Part shown: one piece after another, positions 21,376 to 22,516 of the stretch
Numbering within the stretch: position 1 is the first letter of the stretch
Layout: each line of letters starts with the position of its first letter
NCBI RefSeq assembly: GCF_002777255.1
Contig: NZ_CP017634.1
Location: 2,306,903 to 2,370,902, forward strand
DNA: 64,000 nt
Direction: 5' to 3'
Source of the DNA: Candidatus Formimonas warabiya
GTDB taxonomy: Bacteria > Bacillota > Dehalobacteriia > Dehalobacteriales > Dehalobacteriaceae
Translations under genes and position numbers: made by a program
Notes under the pieces: model-generated
The model's input: the letters and a program-made list of their open reading frames with translations, nothing else
Database searches by the model: none
What the model was told of the DNA's origin: nothing

Positions 21376-21846
21376 TTAAACCAAATTTTGTTGATAATTT
21401 TCCACCAAATATTTTTTCCCCTTCTGGATCACCCGGTGTCCTTCCTGCTCCAGCAATTGCTTTTGGTATTCAATACCGCCGGGATACTTTTCGTTCAGGA
21501 TCCCCCCTGTTTTCAGGGTCCGCCAGTAAGGAGTGGTGCCATCTTTCCCTTCACCCCTGGCCTCCTCGGCGGCATGGGAGGCGATCCAGGCAAAAATACC
21601 CGTCGTCATGGGACAGCCGATGGTCGCTTGGTGCTTCTCCGCCAGCTTTTGACGGATCTCGTTGATGGTGGTGAGCTTTCCAAAGGGCACACTTTTCATG
21701 AGTCCGTCAACTTCCCGGGGCGCCGGAATCACCACGGTACCCGTTCCCCACTTTTTACTCATTCTCTCCGTAATCGGTTCTACTTTTGGCAATCCCTGGC
21801 CCTCGTTCAATTTTTCCTGCCAGGATTTTTTCGTGTTTTTACCCAT
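21376..21846 (-). CDS. MGMT-family (alkyltransferase-like) protein
   Basis: 156 residues with the methylguanine-DNA methyltransferase DNA-binding fold (VPFGKLTTINEIRQKLAEKH). At the active site the usual PCHR is replaced by the GCPMTTGI segment, so the active-site environment is not that of a true methyltransferase. It may flag alkylated bases for repair as other alkyltransferase-like proteins do. The C-terminal part carries lysine-rich DNA-contact-like sequence. ATG at 21846 preferred over the TTG two codons upstream. Confidence 0.75.
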   Translation of the reverse strand: MGKNTKKSWQEKLNEGQGLPKVEPITERMSKKWGTGTVVIPAPREVDGLMKSVPFGKLTTINEIRQKLAEKHQATIGCPMTTGIFAWIASHAAEEARGEGKDGTTPYWRTLKTGGILNEKYPGGIEYQKQLLEQEGHRVIQKGKKYLVENYQQNLV

Positions 21847-21882
21847 CGCCAACCTTCTTTCCTTTCCCCATATGAAGCAACC

Positions 21883-22278
21883 CTACTTCACTCGATAGAA
21901 CAACCCTCACAGGCAGCTTCCTTCCTTGTTTACGTAGCCTTGGCGGGTCTCCAGACAGGGACAGATATTCTCCGGAATATTGTCAAAACGGCAAGGACAA
22001 TAAAAATCGCCAAACCGCTCATTCTTTTCCAATAGACCCCTCACGATCTCCTGTTTATTCTCATCAAAAACGTAACCCCTTAGTCTGGCATAATTCTCTA
22101 CCCGTTCCAGTATTTCCTCTTCCGGTTTTTGAGGAGATCGCACCGCTTCTAAGGGATGTTCCTGGGCGATGGTCAATTTGGCCCCGCACACCGGGCAAAT
22201 GAGGGTCTCACCGGTGTGGGGAGGTTCTTTTACCAAAAAGCTGACCCGGCATACCGGACAGTATACTTTATCCCTCAC
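21883..22278 (-). CDS. Ferredoxin:thioredoxin reductase catalytic-domain selenoprotein (in-frame TGA)
   Basis: Reads as a 131-residue protein if the TGA at 21907-21909 is decoded as Sec124. A zinc ribbon (CPVC at 7-10, CPVC at 28-31) is followed by a helical linker and an FTR-type catalytic segment with three paired motifs: CPC at 94-96, CPC at 106-108, and C122-L-[TGA124] followed by GLFYRVK and a TAG stop. Family members end in CxCGLF, so the TGA falls exactly on the last redox cysteine. A possible SECIS hairpin follows (stem GTGAAG / CTTCAT, 8-base loop TAGGGTTG, loop about 21 bases after TGA). It overlaps the glutaredoxin gene by 11 bases. The alternative is a nonsense-truncated protein. 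Confidence 0.72.
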
Positions 22279-22516
22279 TTTTCAGGGCCTCCTTAATCTC
22301 TTCCGGTTTAAACCCTTGAATCACCAGGTTATTGACGACGGTAATAGGAAAGGACCTTTTTCCCGTCAGTTTATCAACCTCTTCCAGGGCCTGCTCCTGT
22401 TCTTTGCCTGCAATCAGATCCACATCAACAACTTCAAAATCTATCCTTTCATCCCTAAGAAACTGTTTCACCTTTTTGCACCACGGACATGTAGATAAGG
22501 CATAGACTTTAACCAT
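22268..22516 (-). CDS. Glutaredoxin/NrdH-like thioredoxin-fold protein
   Basis: 82 residues: KVYALSTCPWCKKVKQFL with the redox CPWC at 10-13, and the cis-proline region SFPITVVNN followed by GF near the C-terminus. A small thiol carrier. It overlaps the FTR-like gene by 11 bases, so reductase and carrier are made together. This suggests a ferredoxin-driven electron chain to this glutaredoxin, which is inferred from context. RBS AAAGGAGG upstream of the ATG. Confidence 0.88.
   Translation of the reverse strand: MVKVYALSTCPWCKKVKQFLRDERIDFEVVDVDLIAGKEQEQALEEVDKLTGKRSFPITVVNNLVIQGFKPEEIKEALKSEG

Follow-up and report, generated by a model that had tools for sequence, protein, structure and literature searches.

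The closest described relatives of the protein considered here belong to the ferredoxin:thioredoxin reductase (FTR) family. In FTR, ferredoxin passes a first electron to the [4Fe-4S] cluster; of the two sulfurs of the active-site disulfide, one becomes available to attack thioredoxin and the other joins a cluster iron as a fifth ligand, and the product is then freed by a second electron (PMC3838966). FTR selenoproteins were first reported in 2008 from Global Ocean Sampling data as two sequences, one with both redox cysteines replaced; one of the two may have had a single selenocysteine (Sec) (PMC2398784). An FTR with a CxU motif has also been listed in a review (PMC9312934), and a 2026 review ties the FTR selenoprotein to NF041072, an FtrB family double-selenoprotein with two Sec residues (PMC13188914). 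No FTR entry is present in the main text of the deep-Sep paper. Since a Sec form of FTR has been published, the protein described below is not a first.

The gene lies within a window of 64,000 nucleotides (the whole stretch of DNA that was analysed) of the genome of the anaerobe 'Candidatus Formimonas warabiya'. It occupies positions 21883..22278 of the minus strand, a strand left unstated by the sequence-only reading that had drawn attention to it, and its frame runs for 131 codons from a GTG start (22278..22276) through a UGA at codon 124 (21909..21907, minus strand), read here as Sec124, to a TAG stop. Profile matches and the predicted structure describe the product as a LysW-like zinc ribbon fused to an FTR/FDR-type catalytic domain. 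The N-terminal ribbon (CPVC ... CPVC; 22141..22266, minus strand) resembles LysW structures and matches the Pfam profile PF21344 with 27 bits, right at the cut-off. The catalytic domain matches PF02943 with 34.8 bits (cut-off 22) and, according to a whole-genome profile search, is the only PF02943 protein of the organism. The family motif is CPC-x9-CPC-x13-CxC. Its first CPC (C94 and C96; 21991..21999, minus strand) would provide, by FTR homology, a cluster ligand and the first redox cysteine, roles that are well established for FTR. The second CPC (C106 and C108; 21955..21963, minus strand) holds putative [4Fe-4S] ligands, and C122, the first residue of CxU (21913..21915, minus strand), is the putative fourth ligand, likewise by homology. 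A leucine separates C122 from Sec124; in most other members the position is taken by His or Tyr, and the proton donor of the window protein may therefore be a different one. The earlier reading had placed the TGA at the site of the last redox cysteine of the family, which the PF02943 match and the family alignment bear out. It had also noted that GLF continues past the TGA and that a TAG stop comes eight codons on, and the frame does read GGG TTG TTC TAT CGA GTG AAG (GLFYRVK) before a TAG (21885..21883, minus strand), which is taken as the true stop, conservation falling off past it. Gene prediction that ends a frame at UGA would cut the last eight residues from members of this family, one of the two redox residues among them.

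The AlphaFold2 model of the selenoprotein (pLDDT 95.8) found as its top structural match 7pwe, a glutaredoxin/FDR fusion, followed by 4tpu, plant FTRs and LysW proteins, the last with TMt values of 0.75-0.87. No FtrA variable subunit (PF02941) was detected in the eight genomes searched, this one included, by a search that does find the FtrA of Synechococcus. The FTR-like domain, the resemblance to 4tpu and 7pwe in both sequence and fold and the missing FtrA place the protein with the ferredoxin:disulfide reductases (FDR), and a [4Fe-4S] cluster is predicted on the same grounds. The Methanosarcina acetivorans FDR has a rubredoxin centre; the additional domain of the window protein sits at the N-terminus and resembles LysW. 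The proposed FTR-like identity thus held for fold and motif, but the protein is nearer to a ferredoxin:disulfide reductase with a LysW-like zinc ribbon than to a plant-type FTR.

Further information on the function of the enzyme came from its gene neighbourhood. A glutaredoxin-like protein with a CPWC site is encoded at 22268..22516 of the minus strand (PF00462, 52.7 bits) and overlaps the start of the selenoprotein gene by 11 nt. A glutaredoxin gene was found directly upstream in 33 of the 34 zinc-ribbon family loci, in Bacteria as well as Archaea, the single locus without one (L030) being cut by a contig end. In these 33 loci the end of the glutaredoxin gene coincides with the reductase start or shortly precedes it, and all 33 neighbouring glutaredoxins have a CxxC-type site (CP[WYF]C in 32 and CFWC in one). 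The glutaredoxin context, the match to 7pwe, the sole PF02943 protein and the missing FtrA together point away from a plant-type FTR and towards a ferredoxin:glutaredoxin reductase. Most likely, the protein is a ferredoxin:glutaredoxin (disulfide) reductase with a selenol as the cluster-proximal thiol, and gene order suggests that the neighbouring glutaredoxin is most likely its substrate or partner. It is improbable that the Sec enzyme acts instead on thioredoxin, like plant FTR, or on some other substrate, with the glutaredoxin merely co-regulated. FTR-type enzymes do reduce thioredoxins, and trxA is reported to lie beside the grd genes in strain DCMF (PMC9768040), but a CxxC glutaredoxin precedes the reductase directly in 33 family loci from several phyla and the solved structure 7pwe joins a glutaredoxin to an FDR in one chain. 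The next gene downstream (21376..21852, minus strand) gave a weak match to PF01035 (alkyltransferase DNA-binding; 22.9 bits, below the cut-off) and, at the other loci searched, does not adjoin the reductase.

If the UGA were an ordinary stop, the protein would end at Leu123, would lack the second redox cysteine and could work as a mono-thiol or only as an Fe-S protein. UGA normally terminates many genes in this organism, which favours this explanation, but the comparison of homologues goes against it. Homologues were collected by a scan of genome contigs and by whole-genome searches, and came from Bacillota, Atribacterota and Thermoplasmatota/Euryarchaeota as well as from two single contigs, one labelled Desulfovibrio and the other Chloroflexi; a search of a plasmid collection found no relatives. 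In an alignment of 30 members, the codon at the UGA column is TGA in 10 and TGC or TGT in 20, with no third kind and no other stop. The cysteines of both CPC motifs and C122 are invariant in this alignment, and all 10 homologues with UGA continue with [GKNR][LF]F. The nearest relative, L011, from the same genome family, is a UGA form that is 67% identical and continues GLFYKAE-TAG. Among the aligned members none lacks both Cys and UGA at the column. Cysteine homologues therefore exist at the exact UGA column, as the sequence-only reading had asked, and no aligned homologue has a plain stop there without UGA relatives.

A maximum likelihood tree requires no fewer than 4 state changes to account for the ten UGA forms, as against 8.6 for shuffled labels. 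Few branches of this tree are well supported, and the starred ones force one change only. It is likely that Sec and Cys were exchanged repeatedly in the family, the number of switches being uncertain. The archaeal members, from Thermoplasmata and relatives (L023, L025-L036 and L039), are all Cys forms and keep the glutaredoxin-reductase gene pair; selA over the cut-off was absent from those of their genomes that were tested. Archaea would reach Sec by another route. A distant FTR-like protein from Chloroflexi that lacks the zinc ribbon (L038:2147-2488) displays CHU at the Sec position; its gene lies just downstream of NifS-like and NifU-like genes and has no glutaredoxin neighbour.

The sequence-only reading had also noticed a hairpin at SECIS distance, and this was substantiated, as was each of its other descriptive details that was checked. 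A bSECIS-type hairpin occupies 21872..21891 of the minus strand, with an 8-bp stem (GUGAAGUA/UGCUUCAU) and a GGGU loop. It starts 15 nt after the UGA and its loop 23 nt after it, so that the UAG overlaps both the upper end of the stem and the loop. According to published rules, the apical loop of a bSECIS falls 16-37 nt after the UGA, G is present in the first two loop positions and the minimum free energy is -7.5 or lower (PMC13188914). With a spacing of 23 nt, a GGGU loop, 8 bp and -9.6 kcal/mol for the 45-nt segment, the structure agrees with these rules, the helix by itself contributing -6.8 kcal/mol. The energy of the segment is, however, unexceptional (z = -1.35; 18 of 200 shuffles were as good), a point in favour of ordinary termination, and because the value is non-significant, the argument draws on position and comparative evidence and not on energy. 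Under a strict rule (a contiguous helix, a loop of 3-6 nt with G in the first two positions, a distance of 16-37 nt and an energy of -6.5 or lower), a hairpin was found in 10 of 10 UGA forms and in none of 40 Cys forms, distant FTR homologues counted in; these counts overstate the contrast somewhat, because the hairpins had already been seen when the limits on energy and loop size were set. The background for the same rule in the 64-kb window is 2 of 42 ORFs ending in TGA and 41 of all 2315 TGA triplets. When loops of up to 9 nt were allowed, a stable hairpin also appeared in three Cys forms (L013, L015 and L062). As a positive control, the UGA of SelD in this and three related genomes was followed 16-17 nt downstream by a hairpin of 5 bp, its loop CGGG or GGC and its energy -4.9 to -5.8 kcal/mol, hairpins that the -6.5 threshold would miss, which indicates that the threshold is strict.

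Across all 10 UGA forms the hairpin lies 20-24 nt downstream of the UGA, and three to five pair types occur at each of the five helix positions beside the loop, which indicates that the structure has been kept as the sequence changed. It is through its position, its G-starting loop and its conservation that the hairpin exceeds chance. For the majority of the UGA forms, the hairpin encloses the true stop, which is a UAG or a UGA. Four members (L020, L021, L064 and L065) end in a second UGA, eight codons past the Sec UGA and inside the SECIS hairpin, so one UGA would be Sec and the next a stop within 27 nt.

The machinery for Sec insertion, whose presence the earlier reading had left to be checked, is complete in the genome: selA (597 bits), selB, selD and a tRNA-Sec gene (selC, 65 bits) with a UCA anticodon were all found. 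The selD gene itself carries an in-frame TGA. At least some of the machinery was present in the genome of every UGA form. All these genomes have selA except those of L021, which shows a selB fragment at a contig edge, and L024, where a selA fragment at the end of a contig accompanies a full selB. Conversely, selA was under the cut-off or absent in 15 of the 21 Cys-form genomes scored, absences that are soft because some MAGs are incomplete. Fisher's test for this contrast gave p = 2.5e-4, uncorrected for kinship. In addition, the selenoprotein GrdA is listed in proteome tables of 'Candidatus Formimonas warabiya' strain DCMF (PMC9768040), which points to active Sec decoding in the organism. PylS (373 bits) is encoded outside the window, at G000:C1:6238555-6239277, and UGA and UAG may both be recoded in this organism.

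Set against a column divided 10 to 20 between UGA and Cys, with one or the other in every aligned homologue, the conserved [GKNR][LF]F continuation, a conserved and covarying hairpin and a full Sec machinery, ordinary termination at UGA is very improbable, and the column and the conserved hairpin led to its rejection. The UGA almost certainly specifies selenocysteine as the last active-site residue, as sequence comparison across the family indicates and as the earlier reading of an FTR-like protein had proposed. The least probable suggestion, extremely doubtful, is that the UAG is recoded too, as pyrrolysine, and that the protein thereby runs on into the next gene (21852..21376) as a longer fusion: PylS is present in all three UGA-form genomes tested (this one, G002 and G404), all of which end the selenoprotein gene in UAG, and the frame past the UAG is open into the next gene at the window locus, but the proteins of the window and L011 share the same residue at 57 of 78 codons before Sec, 4 of 7 from Sec to UAG and only 2 of 12 past it, two further UAG codons follow soon after in L011 and the Cys homologues end in the same region, so that this readthrough was rejected for lack of conservation beyond the UAG.

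Taken with the preferred Sec reading, these observations make it very probable that the Sec124 selenoprotein is an enzyme of the ferredoxin:disulfide reductase type, with a C96/Sec124 redox pair beside a [4Fe-4S] cluster and glutaredoxin as its substrate. The comparative evidence for this consists of the UGA/Cys equivalence, the SECIS hairpin, the Sec machinery and the conserved glutaredoxin neighbour; from homology and gene order we infer the cluster, the identity of the electron donor, the succession of steps and the substrate. SelB and Sec-tRNA-Sec would decode UGA 124 under the direction of the downstream hairpin that overlaps the UAG. The cluster would be held by C94, C106, C108 and C122, adjoining the redox pair, and ferredoxin would deliver electrons one by one. 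In spinach FTR, the attacking residue is Cys57, the second cysteine of the first CPC, and the cluster binder is Cys87, the second cysteine of CxC; by alignment, we take these to be equivalent to C96 and Sec124. As the equivalent of Cys87, Sec124 is predicted to lie on the cluster side. The first electron would open the C96-Sec124 selenosulfide, with Sec124 contacting the cluster, C96 would attack the disulfide of the neighbouring CPWC glutaredoxin and the second electron would release the reduced glutaredoxin. That Sec124 binds the cluster in the one-electron intermediate, forming a natural Fe-Se(selenocysteine) bond at a [4Fe-4S] cluster, and that selenium speeds the two one-electron steps by which ferredoxin electrons yield a dithiol, is a proposal to which we give an even chance. 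A Sec beside [4Fe-4S] would offer a 77Se spectroscopic handle on the FTR intermediate. If the ferredoxin:glutaredoxin assignment is true, ferredoxin-driven glutaredoxin reduction would be tied to selenium supply through the only FTR-type enzyme found in the genome. Closely related Cys and Sec enzymes that share one operon arrangement form a natural pair for testing the benefit of selenium in a cluster-based disulfide reductase.

In comparison with known systems, the window protein shares with NF041072 an FTR catalytic domain whose final redox residue is a Sec, in CxU. NF041072, however, has Sec at both redox positions, whereas the window protein has it at the second only, from a single UGA, and scores 23.8 bits against the NF041072 model, far below the cut-off of 160. 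It also differs in its LysW-like zinc ribbon, in its glutaredoxin operon and in that its UGA forms come mainly from anaerobic Bacillota. With plant and cyanobacterial FTR (1dj7, 2pu9 and 7c2b) it shares the fold of the catalytic subunit and the cluster/disulfide motif, but the genome has no FtrA, a Sec stands as the cluster-proximal residue and the motif is CLU in place of CHC. The FTR-like fold and the CPC-CPC-CxC arrangement are found again in 4tpu, the M. acetivorans FDR, and in 7pwe, the Desulfotalea psychrophila fusion, both of which have Cys where the window protein has Sec. The extra region of 4tpu is C-terminal and rubredoxin-like, in contrast to the N-terminal LysW-like ribbon of the window protein, whereas 7pwe shares the link to glutaredoxin, fused there and encoded by a separate gene at the window locus. 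In conclusion, Sec in FTR is already published, and the zinc-ribbon, glutaredoxin-linked Sec form is one that was not previously known.
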